Shown here: one piece after another, positions 322 through 41,409 of the stretch
Layout of the letters: the number at the start of each line of letters is the position of its first letter
Position numbering within the stretch: position 1 is the first letter of the stretch
NCBI GenBank assembly: GCA_020444325.1
Contig: JAHLLD010000005.1
Coordinates: forward strand, 124,001-188,000
Direction of reading: 5' to 3'
DNA: 64,000 nt
Source: a bacterium
GTDB taxonomy: Bacteria; Bacteroidota; Ignavibacteria; SZUA-365
Notes under the pieces: model-generated
The model's input: the letters and a program-made list of their open reading frames with translations, nothing else
What the model was told of the DNA's origin: nothing
Databases searched by the model: none
Made by a program: the position numbers and the translations under genes

Positions 322-495
322 CATCGTCCCCACGCCCCTTCGTCCCCACGCTCTGCGTGGGGACGGGCATTCCCGCCGCTCTGCGGCGATTGCCGGAATA
401 TATGAACGCAGAGCGTTCAGGGTTTGCGTCCCCACGCTGGAGCGTGGGGACGATGCATGGAGCGTGGGGACGATGCATGGAGCGTGGGGACGATG
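322..495. repeat. Degenerate copy of the 118-bp nested-palindrome element
   Basis: The stretch begins CATCGTCCCCACG and carries the hairpins of the 118-bp family seen at 30189, 35004, 40453 and 41292. One has arms GTCCCCACGC/GCGTGGGGAC (341-365), one is a CGCCGC/GCGGCG-type hairpin (about 372-389), and one contains AACGCAGAGCGTT. This copy is longer because its right end, a 20-bp unit ending GTGGGGACGATG, is repeated three times in tandem between about 436 and 495. It lies between the divergent genes at 319 and 552 and may contribute to their 5' regions. Confidence 0.8.
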
Positions 496-30096: not shown

Positions 30097-30188
30097 AGCC
30101 TCCGCTCCGCGGAGGCGCTGGAGCCGCTGGAGGCGCTGGAGCCGCTGGAGGCGCTGGAGCCGCTTCGGCCTTCGGCCTCAGCGTCGAT
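30097..30188. repeat. Hairpin and 18-bp tandem repeat after the glycosidase gene
   Basis: A hairpin with arms GCCTCCGC/GCGGAGGC and a three-base loop (30098-30116) directly follows the stop. It is followed by the 18-bp unit GCTGGAGCCGCTGGAGGC repeated about 2.7 times (30117-30164) and a small CGGCCTTCGGCC-like stem. No T-run is present. The region leads into the 118-bp element. Confidence 0.75.
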
Positions 30189-30306
30189 CATCGTCCCCAC
30201 GCTCCGCGTGGGGACGTCTTCCTCCCGCCGCTCTGCGGCGATTAAGAAGCACAATGAACGCAGAGCGTTCGAAGCGCGCGTCCCCACGCAGAGCGTGGGG
30301 ACGATG
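30189..30306. repeat. 118-bp nested-palindrome element, copy 2
   Basis: The element starts CATCGTCCCCACG and ends CGTGGGGACGATG. The outer ~28 bp at each end are inverted repeats of each other, and each is itself a hairpin with GTCCCCACGC/GCGTGGGGAC arms and a three-base loop. Inside are a CGCCGC/GCGGCG stem with TCT loop and a GAACGC/GCGTTC stem with AGA loop. It has no ORF with a plausible start. Copies of exactly the same length lie at 35004, 40453 and 41292. Confidence 0.9.
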
Positions 30307-30340
30307 GACGTCGCGTCAGCGACGCTCCCGCGCGCGGTAT

Positions 30341-30375
30341 AAACAAAAGCACCCCGCCTCTTGGAGACGGGGTGC
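30341..30375 (-). terminator. Intrinsic terminator of the small calcium-loop protein gene (copy 1)
   Basis: On the reverse strand, a stem of GCACCCCG with complementary CGGGGTGC and a short loop (30349-30375) is followed by a T-rich run (complement of AAACAAAA at 30341-30348). It lies 24 bp after the stop of the gene at 30399-30833. A different terminator with the same layout follows the duplicate gene. Confidence 0.8.
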
Positions 30376-30398
30376 AGTCTTGAGAGACGCCGCGTTAC

Positions 30399-30833
30399 TT
30401 ACTTGCCCCGGCGGCCGTTGCCCTTGGGACCGGTTTCGTCACATTCGCCCGTGCCCGTTCCGGTACCTTCGCCGGCGTTTCCACCGCGCATACCGCGTTC
30501 ACCGACGTTACCCGTGCCGGAACCCGGGACGTAGTCAGGATCCTGTCCGTTGGGGATACCGTCGCCGTCGGCGTCCGGTGCGTTGTCATTGATGCCGTCA
30601 CCATCAGCGTCGACGAATCCGCGTCCGCTGATCGTGCCGGTGTAATCTTCATCGCGTCCGTTGGGGATACCGTCGCCGTCATCGTCCATGGCATTGTCAT
30701 TGTAACCGTCGCCATTGGCGTCGACGAAGCCCTTACCATCAGGCTTGCCCTGAGCGTAAGTGTCCTGCGTGTTGATGACCGTGAGCGTGAGAGCGAAAGC
30801 GAAGAGAGCTGCGAGGGAAAGAATGCGTTTCAT
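30399..30833 (-). CDS. Small secreted protein with calcium-loop (thrombospondin type 3/EF-like) repeats, copy 1
   Basis: The protein has 144 residues. Signal peptide MKRILSLAALFAFALTLTV, cleavage near YAQG. The mature part is four acidic DxDGD-type loops: FVDANGDGYNDNA, DDDGDGIPNGRDED, FVDADGDGINDNA and DADGDGIPNGQDPD, arranged as two repeats of ~40 residues. A Gly/Thr/Arg-rich tail with one Cys (GTGECDETGPKGNGRRGK) follows. Such loops bind calcium. There is no sorting domain, so it is probably released to the periplasm or exported otherwise. AGGAG lies before the ATG. The gene is nearly identical to 40648-41082; the only protein differences seen are conservative (for example T/V after YTGT). 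Confidence 0.88.
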   Translation of the reverse strand: MKRILSLAALFAFALTLTVINTQDTYAQGKPDGKGFVDANGDGYNDNAMDDDGDGIPNGRDEDYTGTISGRGFVDADGDGINDNAPDADGDGIPNGQDPDYVPGSGTGNVGERGMRGGNAGEGTGTGTGECDETGPKGNGRRGK

Positions 30834-30897
30834 GATGAACTCCTGTTGAAAATGATTCGGTGCGTATTTGCGATTCTGTCCCTAAGCAAACCACAAC

Positions 30898-30952
30898 CGT
30901 GCCAAAACCGAAAAACGCCGATTCCGGCGCATTTTCGATGATGACTCATCGG
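30898..30952 (-). promoter_or_regulatory. Upstream box of the small calcium-loop gene (copy 1), shared with the 57-aa gene
   Basis: Read on the reverse strand, a TGAGTCAT word followed by ATCG and AAATG is separated from CGGTTTTGGCACG by a CGCCG/CGGCG mini-stem and five Ts. The 57-aa gene has TGACTCATATTCGGGAATG directly joined to CGGTTTTGGCGCG (59911-59942). The stem plus T-run looks like a small terminator inserted into the shared element, perhaps blocking readthrough from the upstream FG-GAP operon. Confidence 0.55.
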
Positions 30953-31010
30953 ATGGAGTTCCATACTTGCAAGATTCGTCGAAGGGGGAGGCAAGGAATG
31001 TCGAGGGGGT

Positions 31011-31210
31011 CCCCCGCTTCGCGGGGGAAGTTGTTTCCACTCGACCCGCTACGCAGGTCTCGTGGAGTTTTTTTCTCCGCTGCGCGGAGAAGGTGTTTCT
31101 GCTTCGTCCTGCTTCGCATGACTTCGCAGAGTCATCGCGCCTTCGGCGCGCATTTGACAATCAAAACGCCCCGAAGGGGCAAGAACTCCACAAGTCCCGC
31201 GAAGCGGGAC
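31011..31210. repeat. Array of short hairpins, mostly with three-base loops
   Basis: Successive stems are CCCCCGC/GCGGGGG with loop TTC (31011-31027), CTCCGC/GCGGAG with loop TGC, GCGCC/GGCGC with loop TTC, GCCCC/GGGGC with loop GAA, and GTCCCGC/GCGGGAC with loop GAA (ending 31210). Part of it (31030-31151) is duplicated at 34863-34984. The remainder of the 488-bp gap 30834-31321 holds the promoter of the small gene and no supportable ORF. Confidence 0.8.
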
Positions 31211-31321
31211 GCGGTGGAAAAAACGGCGCAGCCAAAAACTCCGCGACCTGTCCGCCACAGTTCGAGCGAAGCGAGAACGACGGCGGAAGCGGATCGCCGC
31301 GGAAACAACGCGCCGAAGGCG

Positions 31322-33034
31322 CTACCTCACGATAATCCCGCGTCCCTCAATGCTGTCCCCATGCGCAACGCTCACATGGTAGTAGCCTGCGCGTAGTTCA
31401 GGGAATGAAATCTGAATCAACGGATCCGGCTTGCTGATTTCGATGTCCTTTCGCAGCACAGTCTGTCCAAGTACATTCCGCAAATGGATGGTCGCTGGAC
31501 CAGAACCTGAGTTCTTCAATCCGATGGTGAGTTGGCGGGTGCTGGGTGGAACGGGGTTGGGATAGATCTGGAAGGCGTCGCGCGAGGGAACGAAGGGTGT
31601 TTCCACATCCGTCAACATATCCGACGAGCCGAGATAAATCTGAAACCTGTGGTCCGCTTTGTTCTCTACTCCTCCGCCGCGCCCGAGTGTGATTACATCG
31701 TCATAGCCATCCCCATTCACATCTCCTGCATCGTGAGCGCCTGGTTCTACCCAATCTTCATCAGGTATTGTGCCGAAGTAGCCAATAGGCTCTCGCACCA
31801 GTCCCCACGGGGTCATAGGATAGAGGTAATACAATGTGCCCAAGGAGATGAAATAGGTTGCCCATCCAATCAAGATATCTCTCGTCCCGTCACCATTCAT
31901 GTCTCCGACTGGACATATCACACGAGGACGAATATCCCCTCCGAATTCAGGTCTATAGTTGGGAATGGAATCATCAGGGACGGGATGCTGCGGCAGCTGT
32001 GCTGATCCGTGAAAAACGAGGACATCACCATAGGAAGTGCGAACAGCCTGATCAATGATGTCGTCGTAGCCATCCAGATCGATATCCATGATGTGGGAGA
32101 AAAACTTACTCGGGCTCCATCCGGAATCTGCGTGTAGCGTCCGGCCGATGCCGGTAAGATCAGCATTGTTCCCGGGGTAATAATCCCAGTATTCGGCTGT
32201 CCGCTGCTCAGTTGCGTCGTAGAAACCATAACACAGAATATCATCACAACCGTTGCCATCGAGATCCCCGGTCATCATCGTATGTGCAATCGCGTGGAAG
32301 CCGATCCCACGTTTTCTCGCGTAGAACTCCAGATCAGCCTGATCGTCCAGGAGCTTGCCACCGTACAGCAGGACGAGTTTTGCTCTCGATGGAAGGGATG
32401 TGTCAAGAACCTTGAACAACAGGTCCGTATATCCATCCCCGTTGAAGTCGAGAGTCTGAATCGCGCTGCGCTGCTCATCCTCGAAATCAAAGCACCCCCA
32501 TCCGCTGGAATCCGGTCCGCGCAGCTCCATGTCAGGTTCAAAATTGAAATACGGCGGATTCGGATGGCGGAAGAACAGACGCACGCGACCCCGGTAGTCC
32601 GCATTGTAGACCTTGTCTCTCCAGCCTACGCCGGTAGCAATGTCGATTCGTCCATCTCCGTTGAAATCCCCGGACGCGAGTCCCGTGGAGCCACCGGGGA
32701 GAATGATCGCGGGGTCATGGTCCAGCGGATCCCCACCAAAGAAGATGAATGTCGTATCGAGCGACGCCGAAACAGCGAAATCGTCGTACCCATCGTCATT
32801 GATATCTCCCAGCTTGCAGAACCACCGTGCAAATCCTGGATGCTCCCCATGAACAACCTCGTCGTAGAGTTCGATTTGGTGTTTCGGGATGTCCGGCATG
32901 GCGGAAGGCGCGTACCCTGTACCTCTGTCCTGCGCGAAGGCCGCCGACCCAACGATTATCGAGAGCATGAGCAGTAGGCCTACGGCATACGCAAATTGCC
33001 TGCTGACCACTACGATGTTGAAGTTTATCTGCAT
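31322..33034 (-). CDS. T9SS-exported seven-FG-GAP-repeat propeller protein, paralogue A
   Basis: The protein has 570 residues. Signal peptide VGLLLMLSIIVGSAAFAQ. Seven DxNxDGxxD calcium loops of integrin-type FG-GAP repeats occur at about 76, 122, 195, 256, 317, 377 and 437, spaced 46-73 residues, so a seven-bladed propeller is expected. Residues 490-570 form a T9SS type A sorting domain (FQIYPNPVPPSTRQLTIGL, LRNVLGQTVLRKDIEI, LRAGYYHVSVAHG, GRGIIVR). The ATG at 33034 begins the signal peptide and lies 7 bp after the stop of paralogue B; it is the second gene of a two-gene operon. Five copies lie in the window; this one carries the DWVEPG and NKADHR variants. Likely a surface adhesin or carbohydrate- or protein-binding scaffold; substrate unknown. 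Confidence 0.9.
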   Translation of the reverse strand: MQINFNIVVVSRQFAYAVGLLLMLSIIVGSAAFAQDRGTGYAPSAMPDIPKHQIELYDEVVHGEHPGFARWFCKLGDINDDGYDDFAVSASLDTTFIFFGGDPLDHDPAIILPGGSTGLASGDFNGDGRIDIATGVGWRDKVYNADYRGRVRLFFRHPNPPYFNFEPDMELRGPDSSGWGCFDFEDEQRSAIQTLDFNGDGYTDLLFKVLDTSLPSRAKLVLLYGGKLLDDQADLEFYARKRGIGFHAIAHTMMTGDLDGNGCDDILCYGFYDATEQRTAEYWDYYPGNNADLTGIGRTLHADSGWSPSKFFSHIMDIDLDGYDDIIDQAVRTSYGDVLVFHGSAQLPQHPVPDDSIPNYRPEFGGDIRPRVICPVGDMNGDGTRDILIGWATYFISLGTLYYLYPMTPWGLVREPIGYFGTIPDEDWVEPGAHDAGDVNGDGYDDVITLGRGGGVENKADHRFQIYLGSSDMLTDVETPFVPSRDAFQIYPNPVPPSTRQLTIGLKNSGSGPATIHLRNVLGQTVLRKDIEISKPDPLIQISFPELRAGYYHVSVAHGDSIEGRGIIVR

Positions 33035-33041
33035 GCGGCCC

Positions 33042-34736
33042 TCATCGTACAATAATTCCTCTTCCCTCAATCCTGTCCCCATGCGCAACGCTCACATGGT
33101 AGTAACCTGCGCGTAGTTCAGGGAATGAAATCTGAATCAACTGATCCGGCTTGCTGATTTCGATGTCCTTTCGCAGCACAGTCTGTCCAAGTACATTCCG
33201 CAAATGGATGGTCGCTGGACCAGAACCTGAGTTCTTCAATCCGATGGTGAGTTGGCGGGTGCTGGGTGGAACGGGGTTGGGATAGATCTGGAAGGCGTCG
33301 CGCGAGGGAACGAAGGGTGTTTCCACATCCGTCAACATATCCGACGAGCCGAGATAAATCTGAAACCTGTGGTCCGCTTTGTTCTCTACTCCTCCGCCGC
33401 GCCCGAGTGTGATTACATCGTCATATCCATCCCCATTCACATCTCCTGCATCGTGAGCTCCAGGAACGACCCTGTCTTCATCGGGTATCGTACCGAAGTA
33501 GCCGATGGGCTCTCGAACCAATCCCCACGGGGTCATTGGATAGAGATAGTACAACGTGCCCAAAGATATGAAATACGTAGCCCATCCTATAAGTAGATCT
33601 CTCGTTCCGTCGCCATTCATGTCTCCTACTGGACATATCACACGAGGACGAATATCCCCTCCAAATTCCGGAGTGTAATTTGGTATGGAATCATCAGGGA
33701 CGGGATGCTGGGGCAACTGCGCCGATCCGTGAAAAACGAGGACATCACCATAGGAAGTGCGAACAGCCTGATCAATGATGTCGTCGTAGCCATCCAGATC
33801 GATATCCATGATGTGGGAGAAAAACTTACTCGGGCTCCATCCGGAATCTGCGTGTAGCGTCCGGCCGATGCCGGTAAGATCAGCATTGTTCCCGGGGTAA
33901 TAATCCCAGTATTCGGCTGTCCGCTGCTCAGTTGCGTCGTAGAAACCATAACACAGAATATCATCACAACCGTTGCCATCGAGATCCCCGGTCATCATCG
34001 TATGTGCAATCGCGTGGAAGCCGATCCCACGTTTTCTCGCGTAGAACTCCAGATCAGCCTGATCGTCCAGGAGCTTGCCACCGTACAGCAGGACGAGTTT
34101 TGCTCTCGATGGAAGGGATGTGTCAAGAACCTTGAACAACAGGTCCGTATATCCATCCCCGTTGAAGTCGAGAGTCTGAATCGCGCTGCGCTGCTCATCC
34201 TCGAAATCAAAGCACCCCCATCCGCTGGAATCCGGTCCGCGCAGCTCCATGTCAGGTTCAAAATTGAAATACGGCGGATTCGGATGGCGGAAGAACAGAC
34301 GCACGCGACCCCGGTAGTCCGCATTGTAGACCTTGTCTCTCCAGCCTACGCCGGTAGCAATGTCGATTCGTCCATCTCCGTTGAAATCCCCGGACGCGAG
34401 TCCCGTGGAGCCACCGGGGAGAATGATCGCGGGGTCATGGTCCAGCGGATCCCCACCAAAGAAGATGAATGTCGTATCGAGCGACGCCGAAACAGCGAAA
34501 TCGTCGAATCCATCATCGTTGACATCTCCCAGCTTGCAGAACCACCGCGCAAATCCCGGATGCTCCCCATGAACAACTTCGTCGTAGAGTTCGATATGGT
34601 GTTTCGGGATATCCGGCATGGCGGAAGGCGCGTACCCTGTACCTCTGTCCTGCGCAGGATTCAGCTGGGCTTGCAGCTGAGTGCACGGAATGCACAGCTG
34701 GAAAACAGCAAAAACAATCACAAAAGCAATGCGCAT
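33042..34736 (-). CDS. T9SS-exported seven-FG-GAP-repeat propeller protein, paralogue B
   Basis: The protein has 564 residues and is the first gene of the two-gene operon. Its signal peptide differs from A, C and D (MRIAFVIVFAVFQLCIPCTQ, cleavage near LQAQ) and it has LNPAQ before the common DRGTGYAPSAMPDIP. From there it is almost identical to the others, including seven FG-GAP loops and the T9SS domain. Variants are GDVNDDGFDD, NYTPEFGG, TRDLLIG, EDRVVPG and PDQLIQ. The start ATG is preceded by about 40 bp (to ~34779) identical to the upstream region of paralogue E; beyond that the two diverge. Confidence 0.9.
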   Translation of the reverse strand: MRIAFVIVFAVFQLCIPCTQLQAQLNPAQDRGTGYAPSAMPDIPKHHIELYDEVVHGEHPGFARWFCKLGDVNDDGFDDFAVSASLDTTFIFFGGDPLDHDPAIILPGGSTGLASGDFNGDGRIDIATGVGWRDKVYNADYRGRVRLFFRHPNPPYFNFEPDMELRGPDSSGWGCFDFEDEQRSAIQTLDFNGDGYTDLLFKVLDTSLPSRAKLVLLYGGKLLDDQADLEFYARKRGIGFHAIAHTMMTGDLDGNGCDDILCYGFYDATEQRTAEYWDYYPGNNADLTGIGRTLHADSGWSPSKFFSHIMDIDLDGYDDIIDQAVRTSYGDVLVFHGSAQLPQHPVPDDSIPNYTPEFGGDIRPRVICPVGDMNGDGTRDLLIGWATYFISLGTLYYLYPMTPWGLVREPIGYFGTIPDEDRVVPGAHDAGDVNGDGYDDVITLGRGGGVENKADHRFQIYLGSSDMLTDVETPFVPSRDAFQIYPNPVPPSTRQLTIGLKNSGSGPATIHLRNVLGQTVLRKDIEISKPDQLIQISFPELRAGYYHVSVAHGDRIEGRGIIVR

Positions 34737-35003
34737 GAAAACCCCGATATCATGTCGGAAGCATTGTATCAAATTTGCGGCAGCAGGTCAACCCTGCGTA
34801 CCGGAAAGACACTTGGCCGTGATGGTCTGTTCCCAACGAAAAGTCCCGCGCTTTGCGGGGGCGTTGTTTCCACTCCACCTGCTACGCAGGTCTCGCGGAG
34901 TTCTTTTCTCCGCTGCGCGGAGAAGGTGTTTCTGCTTCGTCCTGCTTCGCATGACTTCGCAGAGTCATCGCGCCTTCAGCGCGCTTGAAGAATACCGCTA
35001 CAT
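34737..35003. repeat. Spacer with a copy of the 122-bp hairpin block
   Basis: After ~40 bp shared with the upstream region of paralogue E, the spacer holds a hairpin block (34863-34984) that aligns base by base in length with 31030-31151, differing at only a few positions (for example CTCCACCTGC versus CTCGACCCGC). It includes the CTCCGC/GCGGAG and cgc-rich stems. No gene is supported here. Confidence 0.8.
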
Positions 35004-35121
35004 CATCGTCCCCACGCTCTGCGTGGGGACGTTTTCAACTCGCCGCTCTGCGGCGACTAAGAGGCACAATGAACGCAGAGCGTTCGAAGCGCGCGTCCCC
35101 ACGCAGAGCGTGGGGACGATG
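35004..35121. repeat. 118-bp nested-palindrome element, copy 3
   Basis: Same ends (CATCGTCCCCACG ... CGTGGGGACGATG), same length and same internal stems as copies 2, 4 and 5. The inner part differs slightly (TTTTCAACTCGCCGC and GATTAAGAGG variants). It separates the two FG-GAP operons. Confidence 0.9.
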
Positions 35122-35206
35122 GCGACGCTACAACGTCCCGCTTCGCGGGAGAACTCCCGCGTGAGCGCAGCGAACTCCCGCGCGTCGCGACAGCGACGCT
35201 CCCGCG
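35122..35206. repeat. Cluster of short hairpins at the end of paralogue C
   Basis: Stems include CCCGC/GCGGG with loop TTC (about 35137-35149), CTCCCGCG-containing repeats, and CGTCGC/GCGACG with loop GACA (about 35185-35200). They run directly into the stop codon of paralogue C at 35207-35209. Confidence 0.7.
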
Positions 35207-36919
35207 CTACCTCACGATTATCCCGCGTCCCTCAATCCTGTCCCCATGCGCAACGCTCACATGGTAGTAGCCTGCGCGTAGTTCAGGGAATGAAATCTGA
35301 ATCAACGGATCCGGCTTGCTGATTTCGATGTCCTTTCGCAGCACAGTTTGTCCAAGGATATTTCGCAATAGAATGGTCGCTGGACCAGAACCTGAGTCTT
35401 TCAATCCGATGGTGAGTTGGCGGGTGCTGGGTGGAACGGGGTTGGGATAGATATGGAAGGCGTCGCGCGAGGGAACGAGGGGTGTTTCCACATCCGTCAA
35501 CATATCCGACGAGCCGAGATAAATCTGGAATTTATAATTTTTATGTGATTCCACACCCCTTCCACGCCCAAGTGTAATTACATCATCATACCCATCTCCG
35601 TTTACATCCCCGGCATCATGTGCTCCAGGTACCACCCTGTCTTCATCAGGTATCGTGCCGAAGTAGCCGATTGGCTCCCGCACCAGGCCCCACGGGGTCA
35701 TTGGATAGAGATAGTATAATGTGCCAGTAGATATAAAATATGTAGCCCATCCGATGAGTAGATCTCTCGTCCCGTCACCATTCATGTCTCCAACCGGGCA
35801 TATGACACGCGGCTGAATATCACCTCCGAATTCAGGTGTATAGTTGGGAATGGAATCATTCGGCTCGGGATGCTGCGGTAAATCAGCAGTTCCGTGAAAA
35901 ACGAGGACGTCACCATATGTCTTGTGGACTGCCTGATCAATGATATCGTCGTAGCCATCCAGATCGATATCCATGATGTGGGAGAAAAACTTACTCGGGC
36001 TCCATCCGGAATCTGCGTGTAGCGTCCGGCCGATGCCGGTAAGATCAGCATTGTTCCCGGGGTAATAATCCCAGTATTCGGCTGTCCGCTGCTCAGTTGC
36101 GTCGTAGAAACCATAACACAGAATATCATCACAACCGTTGCCATCGAGATCCCCGGTCATCATCGTATGTGCAATCGCGTGGAAGCCGATCCCACGTTTT
36201 CTCGCGTAGAACTCCAGATCAGCCTGATCGTCCAGGAGCTTGCCACCGTACAGCAGGACGAGTTTTGCTCTCGATGGAAGGGATGTGTCAAGAACCTTGA
36301 ACAACAGGTCCGTATATCCATCCCCGTTGAAGTCGAGAGTCTGAATCGCGCTGCGCTGCTCATCCTCGAAATCAAAGCACCCCCATCCGCTGGAATCCGG
36401 TCCGCGCAGCTCCATGTCAGGTTCAAAATTGAAATACGGCGGATTCGGATGGCGGAAGAACAGACGCACGCGACCCCGGTAGTCCGCATTGTAGACCTTG
36501 TCTCTCCAGCCTACGCCGGTAGCAATGTCGATTCGTCCGTCTCCATTAAAATCCCCGGACGCGAGTCCTGTGGAGCCACCCGGAAGAATGATCGCGGGGT
36601 CATGGTCCAGCGGATCCCCTCCAAAGAAAATGAATGTTGTATCGAGCGACGCCGAGACAGCGAAATCGTCGTACCCATCGTCGTTGACATCGCCCAGCTT
36701 GCAGAACCACCGCGCAAATCCCGGATGCTCCCCATGAACAACCTCGTCGTAGAGTTCGATATGGTGTTTCGGGATGTCCGGCATGGCGGAAGGCGCGTAC
36801 CCTGTACCTCTGTCCTGCGCGAAGGCCGCCGACCCAACGATTATCGAGAGCATGAGCAGTAGGCCTACGGCATACGCAAATTGCCTGCTGACCACTACGA
36901 TGTTGAAGTTTATCTGCAT
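35207..36919 (-). CDS. T9SS-exported seven-FG-GAP-repeat propeller protein, paralogue C
   Basis: The protein has 570 residues and is the third and last gene of the three-gene operon. It has the same signal peptide as A and the same seven FG-GAP loops. It is the most divergent copy in blades 6-7: AVHKTYGDVLVFHGTADLPQ, PEPNDSIPNY, GDIQPRV, FISTGTLYY, EDRVVPG, GRGRGVESHKNYKFQIY, and VETPLVPSRDAFHIY. The sorting domain has LKDSGSGPATILLRNILGQ, shared only with D. It starts 7 bp after the stop of D, with the same AGGGCCG spacer as the other intra-operon junctions. The middle third is identical to the other copies. Confidence 0.9.
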   Translation of the reverse strand: MQINFNIVVVSRQFAYAVGLLLMLSIIVGSAAFAQDRGTGYAPSAMPDIPKHHIELYDEVVHGEHPGFARWFCKLGDVNDDGYDDFAVSASLDTTFIFFGGDPLDHDPAIILPGGSTGLASGDFNGDGRIDIATGVGWRDKVYNADYRGRVRLFFRHPNPPYFNFEPDMELRGPDSSGWGCFDFEDEQRSAIQTLDFNGDGYTDLLFKVLDTSLPSRAKLVLLYGGKLLDDQADLEFYARKRGIGFHAIAHTMMTGDLDGNGCDDILCYGFYDATEQRTAEYWDYYPGNNADLTGIGRTLHADSGWSPSKFFSHIMDIDLDGYDDIIDQAVHKTYGDVLVFHGTADLPQHPEPNDSIPNYTPEFGGDIQPRVICPVGDMNGDGTRDLLIGWATYFISTGTLYYLYPMTPWGLVREPIGYFGTIPDEDRVVPGAHDAGDVNGDGYDDVITLGRGRGVESHKNYKFQIYLGSSDMLTDVETPLVPSRDAFHIYPNPVPPSTRQLTIGLKDSGSGPATILLRNILGQTVLRKDIEISKPDPLIQISFPELRAGYYHVSVAHGDRIEGRGIIVR

Positions 36920-36926
36920 GCGGCCC

Positions 36927-38639
36927 TCATCGTACAATAATTCCTCTTCCCTCAATCCTGTCCCCATGCGCAACGCTCACATGGTAGTAACCTGCGCGTA
37001 GTTCAGGGAATGAAATCTGAATCAACGGATCCGGCTTGCTGATTTCGATGTCCTTTCGCAGCACAGTTTGTCCAAGGATATTTCGCAATAGAATGGTCGC
37101 TGGACCAGAACCTGAGTCTTTCAATCCGATGGTGAGTTGGCGGGTGCTGGGTGGAACGGGGTTGGGATAGATCTGGAAGGCGTCGCGCGAGGGAACGAAG
37201 GGTGTTTCCACATCCGTCAACATATCCGACGAGCCGAGATAAATCTGAAACCTGTGGTCCGCTTTGTTCTCTACTCCTCCGCCGCGCCCGAGTGTGATTA
37301 CATCGTCATAGCCATCCCCATTCACATCTCCTGCATCGTGAGCGCCTGGTTCTACCCAATCTTCATCAGGTATTGTGCCGAAGTAGCCAATAGGCTCTCG
37401 CACCAGTCCCCACGGGGTCATAGGATAGAGGTAATACAATGTGCCCAAGGAGATGAAATAGGTTGCCCATCCAATCAAGATATCTCTCGTCCCGTCACCA
37501 TTCATGTCTCCGACTGGACATATCACACGAGGACGAATATCCCCTCCGAATTCAGGTCTATAGTTGGGAATGGAATCATCAGGGACGGGATGCTGCGGCA
37601 GCTGTGCTGATCCGTGAAAAACGAGGACATCACCATAGGAAGTGCGAACAGCCTGATCAATGATGTCGTCGTAGCCATCCAGATCGATATCCATGATGTG
37701 GGAGAAAAACTTACTCGGGCTCCATCCGGAATCTGCGTGTAGCGTCCGGCCGATGCCGGTAAGATCAGCATTGTTCCCGGGGTAATAATCCCAGTATTCG
37801 GCTGTCCGCTGCTCAGTTGCGTCGTAGAAACCATAACACAGAATATCATCACAACCGTTGCCATCGAGATCCCCGGTCATCATCGTATGTGCAATCGCGT
37901 GGAAGCCGATCCCACGTTTTCTCGCGTAGAACTCCAGATCAGCCTGATCGTCCAGGAGCTTGCCACCGTACAGCAGGACGAGTTTTGCTCTCGATGGAAG
38001 GGATGTGTCAAGAACCTTGAACAACAGGTCCGTATATCCATCCCCGTTGAAGTCGAGAGTCTGAATCGCGCTGCGCTGCTCATCCTCGAAATCAAAGCAC
38101 CCCCATCCGCTGGAATCCGGTCCGCGCAGCTCCATGTCAGGTTCAAAATTGAAATACGGCGGATTCGGATGGCGGAAGAACAGACGCACGCGACCCCGGT
38201 AGTCCGCATTGTAGACCTTGTCTCTCCAGCCTACGCCGGTGGCAATGTCGATTCGTCCGTCTCCGTTGAAATCCCCGGAAGCGAGTCCTGTGGAGCCACC
38301 CGGAAGAATGATTGCGGGGTCATGGTCCAGCGGATCCCCACCGAAGAAGATGAATGTCGTATCGAGCGACGCCGAGACAGCGAAATCGTCGTATCCATCG
38401 TCATTGACATCTCCCAGCTTGCAGAACCACCGCGCAAATCCCGGATGCTCCCCATGAACAACTTCGTCGTAGAGTTCGATATGGTGTTTCGGGATATCCG
38501 GCATGGCGGAAGGCGCGTACCCTGTACCTCTGTTCTGCGCGAAAGCCGCCGACCCAACGATTATCGAGAGCATGAGCAGTCGGCCCACGGCATACGCAAA
38601 TTGCCTGTTGAGTACTACTATGTTGAAGTTTATCTGCAT
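36927..38639 (-). CDS. T9SS-exported seven-FG-GAP-repeat propeller protein, paralogue D
   Basis: The protein has 570 residues and is the second gene of the three-gene operon. It combines features of other copies: the blade 6-7 region is like A and E (TSYGDVLVFHGSAQLPQ, NYRPEFGG, EDWVEPG, NKADHR), while the sorting domain is like C (LKDSGSGPATILLRNILGQ). The signal peptide reads AVGRLLMLSIIVGSAAFAQ, a one-residue variant. It starts 7 bp after the stop of E. The mosaic suggests gene conversion. Confidence 0.9.
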   Translation of the reverse strand: MQINFNIVVLNRQFAYAVGRLLMLSIIVGSAAFAQNRGTGYAPSAMPDIPKHHIELYDEVVHGEHPGFARWFCKLGDVNDDGYDDFAVSASLDTTFIFFGGDPLDHDPAIILPGGSTGLASGDFNGDGRIDIATGVGWRDKVYNADYRGRVRLFFRHPNPPYFNFEPDMELRGPDSSGWGCFDFEDEQRSAIQTLDFNGDGYTDLLFKVLDTSLPSRAKLVLLYGGKLLDDQADLEFYARKRGIGFHAIAHTMMTGDLDGNGCDDILCYGFYDATEQRTAEYWDYYPGNNADLTGIGRTLHADSGWSPSKFFSHIMDIDLDGYDDIIDQAVRTSYGDVLVFHGSAQLPQHPVPDDSIPNYRPEFGGDIRPRVICPVGDMNGDGTRDILIGWATYFISLGTLYYLYPMTPWGLVREPIGYFGTIPDEDWVEPGAHDAGDVNGDGYDDVITLGRGGGVENKADHRFQIYLGSSDMLTDVETPFVPSRDAFQIYPNPVPPSTRQLTIGLKDSGSGPATILLRNILGQTVLRKDIEISKPDPLIQISFPELRAGYYHVSVAHGDRIEGRGIIVR

Positions 38640-38646
38640 GCGGCCC

Positions 38647-40341
38647 TCATCGTACAATAATACCTCGTCCCTCAATCCTGTCCCCATGCGCAACGCTCAC
38701 ATGGTAGTAGCCTGCGCGTAGTTCAGGGAATGAAATCTGAATCAACTGATCCGGCTTGCTGATTTCGATGTCCTTTCGCAGCACAGTCTGTCCAAGTACA
38801 TTCCGCAAATGGATGGTCGCTGGACCAGAACCTGAGTTCTTCAATCCGATGGTGAGTTGGCGGGTGCTGGGTGGAACGGGGTTGGGATAGATCTGGAAGG
38901 CGTCGCGCGAGGGAACGAAGGGTGTTTCCACATCCGTCAACATATCCGACGAGCCGAGATAAATCTGAAACCTGTGGTCCGCTTTGTTCTCTACTCCTCC
39001 GCCGCGCCCGAGTGTGATTACATCGTCATAGCCATCCCCATTCACATCTCCTGCATCGTGAGCGCCTGGTTCTACCCAATCTTCATCAGGTATTGTGCCG
39101 AAGTAGCCAATAGGCTCTCGCACCAGTCCCCACGGGGTCATAGGATAGAGGTAATACAATGTGCCCAAGGAGATGAAATAGGTTGCCCATCCAATCAAGA
39201 TATCTCTCGTCCCGTCACCATTCATGTCTCCGACTGGACATATCACACGAGGACGAATATCCCCTCCGAATTCAGGTCTATAGTTGGGAATGGAATCATC
39301 AGGGACGGGATGCTGCGGCAGCTGTGCTGATCCGTGAAAAACGAGGACATCACCATAGGAAGTGCGAACAGCCTGATCAATGATGTCGTCGTAGCCATCC
39401 AGATCGATATCCATGATGTGGGAGAAAAACTTACTCGGGCTCCATCCGGAATCTGCGTGTAGCGTCCGGCCGATGCCGGTAAGATCAGCATTGTTCCCGG
39501 GGTAATAATCCCAGTATTCGGCTGTCCGCTGCTCAGTTGCGTCGTAGAAACCATAACACAGAATATCATCACAACCGTTGCCATCGAGATCCCCGGTCAT
39601 CATCGTATGTGCAATCGCGTGGAAGCCGATCCCACGTTTTCTCGCGTAGAACTCCAGATCAGCCTGATCGTCCAGGAGCTTGCCACCGTACAGCAGGACG
39701 AGTTTTGCTCTCGATGGAAGGGATGTGTCAAGAACCTTGAACAACAGGTCCGTATATCCATCCCCGTTGAAGTCGAGAGTCTGAATCGCGCTGCGCTGCT
39801 CATCCTCGAAATCAAAGCACCCCCATCCGCTGGAATCCGGTCCGCGCAGCTCCATGTCAGGTTCAAAATTGAAATACGGCGGATTCGGATGGCGGAAGAA
39901 CAGACGCACGCGACCCCGGTAGTCCGCATTGTAGACCTTGTCTCTCCAGCCTACGCCGGTAGCAATGTCGATTCGTCCATCTCCGTTGAAATCCCCGGAC
40001 GCGAGTCCCGTGGAGCCACCGGGGAGAATGATCGCGGGGTCATGGTCCAGCGGATCCCCACCAAAGAAGATGAATGTCGTATCGAGCGACGCCGAAACAG
40101 CGAAATCGTCGAATCCATCATCGTTGACATCTCCCAGCTTGCAGAACCACCGCGCAAATCCCGGATGCTCCCCATGAACAACTTCGTCGTAGAGTTCGAT
40201 ATGGTGTTTCGGGATATCCGGCATGGCGGAAGGCGCGTACCCTGTACCTCTGTCCTGCGCAGGATTCAGCTGGGCTTGCAGCTGAGTGCACGGAATGCAC
40301 AGCTGGAAAACAGCAAAAACAATCACAAAAGCAATGCGCAT
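38647..40341 (-). CDS. T9SS-exported seven-FG-GAP-repeat propeller protein, paralogue E
   Basis: The protein has 564 residues and is the first gene of the three-gene operon. Its signal peptide is that of B (MRIAFVIVFAVFQLCIPCTQ), and N-terminal GDVNDDGFDD is as in B, but blades 6-7 match A (NYRPEFGG, TRDILIG, EDWVEPG). The sorting domain matches B (LKNSGSGPATIHLRNVLGQ, PDQLIQ). The upstream ~40 bp are identical to those of B and include TTTGATACAATGC on the coding strand, which may hold the promoter. Seven FG-GAP loops as in A. Confidence 0.9.
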   Translation of the reverse strand: MRIAFVIVFAVFQLCIPCTQLQAQLNPAQDRGTGYAPSAMPDIPKHHIELYDEVVHGEHPGFARWFCKLGDVNDDGFDDFAVSASLDTTFIFFGGDPLDHDPAIILPGGSTGLASGDFNGDGRIDIATGVGWRDKVYNADYRGRVRLFFRHPNPPYFNFEPDMELRGPDSSGWGCFDFEDEQRSAIQTLDFNGDGYTDLLFKVLDTSLPSRAKLVLLYGGKLLDDQADLEFYARKRGIGFHAIAHTMMTGDLDGNGCDDILCYGFYDATEQRTAEYWDYYPGNNADLTGIGRTLHADSGWSPSKFFSHIMDIDLDGYDDIIDQAVRTSYGDVLVFHGSAQLPQHPVPDDSIPNYRPEFGGDIRPRVICPVGDMNGDGTRDILIGWATYFISLGTLYYLYPMTPWGLVREPIGYFGTIPDEDWVEPGAHDAGDVNGDGYDDVITLGRGGGVENKADHRFQIYLGSSDMLTDVETPFVPSRDAFQIYPNPVPPSTRQLTIGLKNSGSGPATIHLRNVLGQTVLRKDIEISKPDQLIQISFPELRAGYYHVSVAHGDRIEGRGIIVR

Positions 40342-40452
40342 GAAAACCCCGATATCATGTCGGAAGCATTGTATCAAATTTGCAGATGGCTTTCAAATCA
40401 TAGTATCGGAAAGACACATGGTTGCTGTGACATGTTCCCAGTGAAAGTCACT

Positions 40453-40570
40453 CATCGTCCCCACGCTCCGCGTGGGGACGTCTTCCTCCCGCCGCTCTGC
40501 GGCGATTAAGAAGCACAATGAACGCAGAGCGTTCGAAGCGCGCGTCCCCACGCAGAGCGTGGGGACGATG
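40453..40570. repeat. 118-bp nested-palindrome element, copy 4
   Basis: Almost identical to copy 2 at 30189-30306, including the CTCCGCGTGG variant of the left hairpin and the GATTAAGAAGCACAATG core. It lies between the promoter of paralogue E and the terminator of the duplicate small gene, as copy 2 does relative to the other small gene. The remaining bases of the 306-bp gap 40342-40647 hold only that promoter and terminator. Confidence 0.9.
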
Positions 40571-40587
40571 GACAAAGACGCTCAGTA

Positions 40588-40624
40588 CCAAACGAAGACA
40601 CCCCGGAGATAACTCCGGGGTGTC
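40588..40624 (-). terminator. Intrinsic terminator of the small calcium-loop protein gene (copy 2)
   Basis: On the reverse strand, a stem of GACACCCCGGAG and its complement around a four-base loop (40597-40624) is followed by TTCGTTTGG. The stem sequence differs from that of copy 1, although the genes themselves are nearly identical. Confidence 0.7.
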
Positions 40625-40647
40625 GCGTAACCTTCAGTCCGAGCGCC

Positions 40648-41082
40648 TTACTTGCCCCGGCGGCCGTTGCCTTTGGGACCGGTTTCGTCACATTCGCCCG
40701 TGCCCGTTCCGCTACCTTCGCCGGCGTTTCCACCGCGCATACCGCGTTCACCGACGTTACCCGTGCCGGAACCAGGGACGTAGTCAGGATCCTGTCCGTT
40801 GGGGATGCCATCGCCATCGGCGTCCGGTGCATTGTCATTGATGCCGTCGCCATCAGCGTCGACGAATCCGCGTCCGCTGACCGTGCCGGTGTAATCTTCA
40901 TCGCGACCATTGGGGATGCCGTCGCCGTCATCGTCCATGGCATTGTCATTGTAGCCGTCGCCATTGGCGTCGACGAAGCCCTTGCCATCAGGTTTGCCCT
41001 GGGCGTAAGTGTCCTGCGTGTTGATGACCGTGAGCGTGAGTGCGAAAGCGAAGAGAGCTGCGAGGGAAAGAATGCGTTTCAT
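40648..41082 (-). CDS. Small secreted protein with calcium-loop repeats, copy 2
   Basis: The protein has 144 residues, nearly identical to copy 1 at 30399-30833, with the same signal peptide, four DxDGD-type loops and Gly-rich tail. Visible differences are YTGTVSGRG for YTGTISGRG and GEGSGTGTG for GEGTGTGTG, with scattered silent changes. The ~165 bp upstream are also almost unchanged to about 41247, giving a ~600-bp direct repeat that brackets the five FG-GAP genes. It is transcribed toward paralogue E but has its own terminator. Confidence 0.88.
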   Translation of the reverse strand: MKRILSLAALFAFALTLTVINTQDTYAQGKPDGKGFVDANGDGYNDNAMDDDGDGIPNGRDEDYTGTVSGRGFVDADGDGINDNAPDADGDGIPNGQDPDYVPGSGTGNVGERGMRGGNAGEGSGTGTGECDETGPKGNGRRGK

Positions 41083-41146
41083 GATGAACTCCTGTTGAAA
41101 ATGATTCGGTGCGTATTTGCGATTCTGTCCCTAAGCAAACCACAAC

Positions 41147-41201
41147 CGTGCCAAAACCGAAAAACGCCGATTCCGGCGCATTTTCGATGATGACTCATCG
41201 G
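41147..41201 (-). promoter_or_regulatory. Upstream box of the small calcium-loop gene (copy 2)
   Basis: Same arrangement as 30898-30952: TGAGTCAT, a CGCCG/CGGCG mini-stem with T-run, then CGGTTTTGGCACG on the coding strand. It is shared with the 57-aa gene at 59683-59856 (there without the mini-stem). Confidence 0.55.
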
Positions 41202-41291
41202 ATGGAGTTCCATACTTGCAAGATTCGTCGAAGCGGGAGGCAAGGAATGTCGAAGGGCCCCCGCGATGCGGGGGCGTTGTTTTCACCAAAT

Positions 41292-41409
41292 CATCGTCCC
41301 CACGCTCTGCGTGGGGACGTCTTCCTCTCGCCGCTCTGCGGCGATTAAGAGGCACAATGAACGCAGAGCGTTCGAAGCGCGCGTCCCCACGCAGAGCGTG
41401 GGGACGATG
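41292..41409. repeat. 118-bp nested-palindrome element, copy 5
   Basis: Same length, ends and stems as copies 2-4; the inner region resembles copy 3 (GATTAAGAGGCACAATG). A hairpin with GCCCCCGC/GCGGGGGC arms precedes it (about 41256-41275). The 388-bp gap 41083-41470 otherwise holds the small-gene promoter and short stems, with no gene. Confidence 0.9.

Follow-up and report, generated by a model that had tools for sequence, protein, structure and literature searches.

The window analyzed here, a 64,000-nucleotide stretch (G000:C5:124001-188000) of the 4.65-Mb source genome G000, a member of the Bacteroidota with Ignavibacteria/Bacteroidetes MAGs as its closest named relatives according to a single protein, carries four copies of a 118-bp palindromic element, referred to as copies A to D, together with a fifth, degenerate one. 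The four main copies bracket an array of FG-GAP genes (31322-34772 and 35207-40377), in line with a first-pass annotation of this DNA, which had described repeats resembling repetitive extragenic palindromes (REPs) or miniature inverted-repeat transposable elements (MITEs) clustered around an amplified block. The starts it gave for the four copies (30189, 35004, 40453, and 41292) proved right, each copy being 118 bp long. The degenerate copy that it placed at 322-495 also exists, but its proper extent is 340-455 and the remainder consists of repeated fragments of the element's end. With H1 to H4 denoting the four successive hairpins of an element, the features are:

30189..30306, + strand: full four-hairpin element, copy A (sequence and hairpin parse)
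35004..35121, + strand: full four-hairpin element, copy B (sequence and hairpin parse)
40453..40570, + strand: full four-hairpin element, copy C, identical to A (sequence and hairpin parse)
41292..41409, + strand: full four-hairpin element, copy D (sequence, hairpin parse, and folding)
41291..41294, + strand: TCAT foot of copy D, immediately 5' of H1
41295..41319, + strand: H1 of copy D, 11-bp stem, loop TCT
41329..41343, + strand: H2 of copy D, CGCCGC-TCT-GCGGCG
41359..41373, + strand: H3 of copy D, GAACGC-AGA-GCGTTC
41382..41406, + strand: H4 of copy D, 11-bp stem, loop AGA
340..455, + strand: fifth element, degenerate but full (4-nt H4 loop, foot CCTT)
456..495, + strand: end-fragment stutter, two direct repeats of the element's last ~20 bp, with a similar fragment at ~322-335

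Copies B and D are 94% and 97% identical to A/C, respectively. Each element is made of two inverted units, each comprising a large 11-bp hairpin and a small 6-bp hairpin, so that the stems follow in the order H1 (11 bp), H2 (6), H3 (6), and H4 (11), with loops of 3 nt. The left half comprises a TCAT foot, H1 (CGTCCCCACGC-TCT-GCGTGGGGACG), a spacer of 8-9 nt, H2 (CGCCGC-TCT-GCGGCG), and ATT; about 10 nt later the right half follows with AAT, H3 (GAACGC-AGA-GCGTTC), a spacer of 7-8 nt, H4 (CGTCCCCACGC-AGA-GCGTGGGGACG), and ATG. The four internal hairpins had been recognized in the first-pass annotation, but its claim that the left loops are TCT does not hold for H1 at 30189 and 40453, where the loop is TCC. 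Overall, left loops are TCT or TCC and right loops AGA, GGA, or TGA, apart from the 4-nt H4 loop of the degenerate copy, and the copy on contig C6 has GACCGC and GGACGC in its small hairpins, with both arms altered together. The window contains 9 occurrences of the palindrome CGTCCCCACGCNNNGCGTGGGGACG, and 100 shuffles contain none; the DNA at 41292-41409 folds at -56.7 kcal/mol, whereas shuffled sequences average -23.1 (z -12). An Rfam scan of the window gave no match, and ARAGORN found no tRNA in it.

A search of the whole genome at E<=0.001 returned 17 full elements, 4 half elements, and 5 single large palindromes, or 26 loci, spread over eight contigs (C1, C2, C5, C6, C7, C10, C11, and C16). 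The large palindrome, with up to 3 mismatches, is found genome-wide 43 times per strand, versus 0 for a reversed control. All 17 full copies parse as inverted REP doublets, always with two different small hairpins, and are thus heterodimers of a CGCCGC (or GACCGC) half and a GAACGC (or GGACGC) half, while the four half copies are always the GAACGC half (H3-H4). The possibility that these repeats exist only around the block, as products of local duplication, is contradicted by this consensus search, which returned many copies with consistent boundaries. A passive history, in which the copies arose solely as the FG-GAP block underwent segmental duplication, can draw on the fact that A and C lie inside an 865-bp duplicate of 90.5% identity that starts exactly at the element edge:

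30188..31040, no strand assigned: segmental duplicate starting at the edge of copy A, 90.5% identical to 40452-41286
40452..41286, no strand assigned: segmental duplicate from the edge of copy C to 5 bp before copy D

As a full account it is refuted, and we give it almost no weight, because other contigs hold most of the copies, A, B, and D share merely 118-122 bp, and A and C are 100% identical within a duplicate of 90.5% identity.

Over all pairs of copies, identity is 96% in the stems and 44% in the spacers (30% for shuffled spacers). The foot 5' of H1 is TCAT in 15 of the 17 full copies and TTAT and CCTT in the remaining two, its leading T (before CAT) being kept in 16; 3' of H4, ATG is followed by G in 8 copies, A in 5, T in 2, and C in 2. 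That a T is conserved on one side only is in keeping with an enzyme whose foot lies 5' of the hairpin. The GT[AG]G foot of canonical REPs, sought on either strand, and an unpaired CGTC foot were each found in 0 of 17 copies. According to PMC8266576, GTAG is required by enzymes of the E. coli type, while changes are tolerated by others. Target-site duplications of 6-9 bp were likewise found in 0 of 17 copies, and those of 3, 4, and 5 bp in 5, 2, and 3 of 17, as against 24%, 8%, and 4% in mixed pairs. Their absence is expected of Y1 enzymes, and it argues against reading the element as a DDE-transposase MITE whose terminal inverted repeats are the 28-bp ends. Although both ends are indeed inverted repeats, the same ends are also borne by a locus encoding a REP-associated tyrosine transposase (RAYT; see below), and we regard a DDE origin as very improbable.

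Spacers also carry information on how the copies are related. Pairs less than 20 kb apart (n=12) have a spacer identity of 0.79, versus 0.41 in the other 124 (permutation p 2e-4), and with three of the window's four main copies left out the values are 0.68 (6 pairs) and 0.43 (85 pairs), again with p 2e-4. The spacer-related neighbors form three groups, namely copies A-D of the window, a trio on C1 at 127-138 kb, and a pair on C5 at 115043 and 124340. Within each group all copies point the same way (independent comparisons agree in 6 of 6, chance 0.016), and spacer identity is lower (0.53, 0.57) for C5:117590, a neighbor on the opposite strand. Outside the element itself, no flanking sequence is common to the members of the C1 trio or of the C5 pair. 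We take this sharing of spacers and orientation as a sign of short-range, strand-fixed spread, while individual groups may go back to an old duplication followed by rearrangement.

The first-pass annotation saw no transposase in the window, and in agreement with this we found none among the 24 window open reading frames (ORFs) scanned with Pfam, a subset of those present, and no window match in genome-wide Y1/RAYT searches. The RAYT gene that it suggested looking for is present on contig C7, bracketed by halves of the element. This RAYT family was first recognized through a 177-aa protein at G004:C11; the ORF in the source genome (G000:C7:162198-162734) encodes 178 aa, scores 95.7 bits against the NCBIfam model NF047646 (REP-associated tyrosine transposase, cut-off 80), and keeps NH.H and the Y of Y-I-H-N-N-P intact. 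The other four proteins of our alignment A1 likewise exceed that cut-off, and the RAYT profile matches the E. coli-type TnpArep 4er8 in the PDB at E 2.9e-8. Against Pfam Y1_Tnp the ORF reaches 17.7 bits, under the 23-bit cut-off. The sole Pfam Y1_Tnp match in G000 (41 genomes were searched) is L081 (C4:175149), a second, distant Y1 protein with 49.7 bits against the REP model, below cut-off; there is no such palindrome nearby, and we rejected it as the element's enzyme. At the C7 locus, H1 and H2 lie upstream of the gene (H2 at 162149-162163, with one G-T pair), H3 (162741-162755) starts 6 nt past the stop codon, and H4 follows at 162764-162788. Both 11-nt arms of the upstream H1 are intact despite a long loop. 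The 118-bp element therefore has the same arrangement as this H1-H2-RAYT-H3-H4 locus, except that ~10 nt of spacer stand in place of the gene.

The same order, each time with its own stem sequences, is found in G109 (L341) and G474 (L334), and the order H1-RAYT-H3-H4, also with its own stems, in G004. In Salinivibrio kushneri (NZ_CP114587.1), a RAYT relative of 42% identity has single CGTTCCCACGC-type palindromes on both sides, the nearest upstream ones being imperfect. Flanking hairpins were looked for at 39 RAYT loci. Of the 13 loci that score >235 bits, 8 have stems of at least 9 bp on both sides, 4 on one side, and 1 (L258) on neither. In the 8 two-sided loci, the upstream loop is TCT or TCC in 7 (one is a 5-nt loop), and every downstream loop is AGA or GGA. 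When the 39 RAYTs are placed on a tree, TCCCA palindromes are confined to one clade (support 99/96), with 18 of 24 loci inside and 0 of 15 outside, and the label changes 5 times versus 13.3 when shuffled (0 of 500 shuffles as low); the GTCCCCA palindrome of G000 misfits this spelling and was scored as a miss. In a fixed genome set, the pattern GNTCCCANNNTCYNNNTGGGANC, a spelling that cannot match G000 or G002, occurs in 9 of 12 testable RAYT genomes (G228 had 4 sites) and in 0 of 14 genomes without a RAYT. In a set of 294 genomes from the class, GTYCCCANNNTCYNNNTGGGRAC is present in 24, and 21 of these carriers have a RAYT (called at E<=1e-10, cross-table read by eye), compared with 86 of 294 overall (Fisher 8e-10). 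At the genus level, G000 and G004 have both element and RAYT, and G001 and G003 have neither. We hold the partnership of RAYT and element with high confidence. G474 contains 92 palindromes. More distant RAYTs of the class (L240-L246, L293, L294) lie beside other palindrome families, such as GTGTCAGGT...ACCTGACAC, each of which is apparently matched to its own RAYT.

A four-CGCNNNGCG-hairpin scan of the retrieved loci yielded 26 distinct elements, of which 14 come from G000, 3 from G002 and G004 together, 1 from G228, and 8 from 7 of 15 viral-database contigs. Stems and loops vary between elements but match within them, as in L089 (TTC/TTT with GAA/GAA) and L093 (GCC/GCT with AGC/AGC), and the H4 of L037 and L098, outer hairpins that were unused for retrieval, are perfect 11-bp stems with different letters. 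In G474, four perfect hairpins were found in 5 of 8 regions, these having been picked for paired palindromes. A weaker copy lies in a gap of a type VI secretion system operon on plasmid pTs485 of Thiodictyon syntrophicum. With the L085 element as query, blastn against plasmids returned Thiodictyon and Salinivibrio, while phages and E. coli genomes gave nothing; the window element gave nothing in plasmids, and no close relative of the G004 RAYT turned up in a scan of viral contigs. A tandem array of six large palindromes with a 43-bp period is present at G004:C94:11249-11490.

Empty sites in relatives had been proposed as a further sign of mobility, and presence/absence is indeed seen at one orthologous junction. 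The convergent gene pair around G000:C5:115043 encloses a full element in G000 and one palindrome in G002, and has no palindrome in either G003 or G004. In G001, this junction (C14:117300-118250, L371) holds a ribbon-helix-helix and MazF-like (PF02452) pair. L029 was rejected as a second presence/absence locus, as it is not clean and the gaps of the relatives are as long as that of G000.

Taken together, the many copies, their consistent boundaries, the presence/absence, and the bracketed RAYT gene bear out the REP/MITE-like reading with a RAYT encoded elsewhere. On this comparative basis, we consider the 118-bp repeats very likely to be REPIN-like, non-autonomous mobile elements that are mobilized in trans by a HUH/Y1-type RAYT (TnpA_REP). 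Several observations weigh against this. A base-exact empty site was not found in relatives, whose intergenic DNA does not align, so that no exact insertion point can be read. The RAYT-bearing copy of G000 has a damaged left end, with a 39-nt H1 loop instead of 3 nt and the foot GAAT. No palindrome-pattern match occurs in 3 of the 12 testable RAYT genomes (G565, G465, and G533), G270 and G576 carry the palindrome with no RAYT at E<=1e-10, and G002 has elements with no RAYT found in its assembly (87% complete, 510 contigs). Finally, conserved hairpins with drifting spacers could also mean in-place selection by the host, which would keep the stems as protectors of RNA 3' ends or weak terminators between genes. 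The contrast between stems and spacers suits such a role, as does the position of copies in gene gaps, where a stop codon is often a few tens of bp away (in L015, 11 bp on each side), but the element is absent from the close relatives G001 and G003, it is tied to a RAYT gene across genomes, and related copies cluster locally within unrelated flanks. We find a host element unlikely as the explanation, though a host function and mobility can both hold.

Further observations concern the surroundings of the elements. Fragments of the element's last 12-20 bases lie beside element edges, all <=54 bp away, in 7 cases (including L016:1483-1656, which is window ~322-495, L007:1626, L008:1447 and 1474, and L019:1564), and the RAYT element of G004 (L220) is also trailed by tandem end fragments; these are possibly abortive events or slippage. 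The intergenic repeats TTCCATCTTTCCATC and AATCTGCAATCTGC, recurrent in the genome, adjoin many elements (flanks of L007-L011, L013, L014, L019, and L029). The FG-GAP array consists of five tandem FG-GAP / Por_Secre_tail paralogues with long stretches of 92-99% identity and is a recent gene amplification. The A/C duplicate starts at an element edge and stops just short of another element, which would allow recombination at the elements, and with it the role in amplification suggested in the first-pass annotation, without proving it.

The proposed unit is a composite REP made of the TCAT foot, the 11-bp hairpin, a spacer of ~8 nt, the 6-bp hairpin, and ATT, with two inverted units per element. 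A RAYT encoded elsewhere in the same genome, between the same two halves, would act in trans, reading the hairpins in single-stranded DNA, cleaving near the foot, and joining the strand to a nearby site, as may be expected from what has been published for TnpA_REP of E. coli and for IS608. We have moderate confidence in this mechanism of a REPIN moved by a RAYT, which is argued by analogy. RAYTs are generally regarded as domesticated, moving REPs but not themselves. A bolder idea, which we put forward tentatively, is that these systems form a separate, cross-phylum class of REP transposons in which the RAYT is cargo of the four-hairpin element. The REPtron itself would then be, or have been, mobile, and its derivatives would hop over short distances in a fixed strand, recognized by a TCAT/CT foot together with paired TCT/AGA loops rather than by GTAG. 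A RAYT gene inside the element, as in several Bacteroidota families and Salinivibrio, would be a missing link from IS200-like transposons to REP systems. The enzymes and their matched hairpins, which differ in stem, loop, and foot, form a set that lends itself to testing. For annotators, the element would account for CGTTCCCACGC...GCGTGGGAACG palindromes in bacterial intergenic DNA.

Compared with known systems, the element has much in common with REPINs and RAYTs (Bertels and Rainey 2011, PMC3116915), including a short inverted REP doublet, singles beside doublets, a mostly intergenic location, and a lone RAYT gene with the same REP on both sides. It differs from REPINs in having two hairpins per REP and hence four per doublet, in lacking a GTAG foot, in its far lower copy number in G000 (26 loci), and in the position of the RAYT gene between its two halves. 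Canonical REPINs often number >100 copies. As both the GTAG foot and the high copy number are lacking, we do not file the element as a canonical GTAG REP. The palindromic repeats also recall the GTAG/CGTC REP families, in several of which head-to-head heterodimers predominate, and CGTC REPs are present in Bacteroidetes and Chlorobi (Di Nocera et al. 2013, PMC3733652). In that study, however, CGTC REPs have an unpaired CGTC foot, stems of 8-9 bp, loops of 4-5 nt, and no transposase, whereas here CGTC lies within an 11-bp stem, the loop is 3 nt, and a RAYT is linked. With IS200/IS605 elements it shares a Y1 enzyme, subterminal hairpins, the lack of target-site duplication, and a fixed orientation, but the protein matches the REP transposase model and not that of IS200 (NF033573 gave no match or one far below cut-off in 5 of 5 proteins), and gene copies are few.

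A literature search on the palindrome and its would-be encoded peptides gave nothing relevant among the matches listed, and within the portions of the literature available, the four-hairpin form and its spread over bacterial groups look undescribed so far. There is also a close likeness to TnpA_REP subclass 2.6 (RAYT group 5), for which the available part of Quentin et al. 2018 (PMC6006769) reports "atypical secondary structures". Four hairpins, paired loops, and a cross-phylum family are not part of the subclass as described there, but the enzymes here have 176-178 aa against a median of 179, occur in Bacteroidota, and have genes beside non-GTAG structures that recur in the genome. The NH[LIV]H, WQ, and YIH[QN]NP motifs and the SS extension largely fit as well, the motifs being present in 4/5, 4/5, and 3/5 of our proteins. 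Subclass 2.6 (group 5) is the likely home of the enzyme, as judged by motifs only, and RAYTs with partner structures so far simply termed atypical would gain a cognate REP in the element described here.

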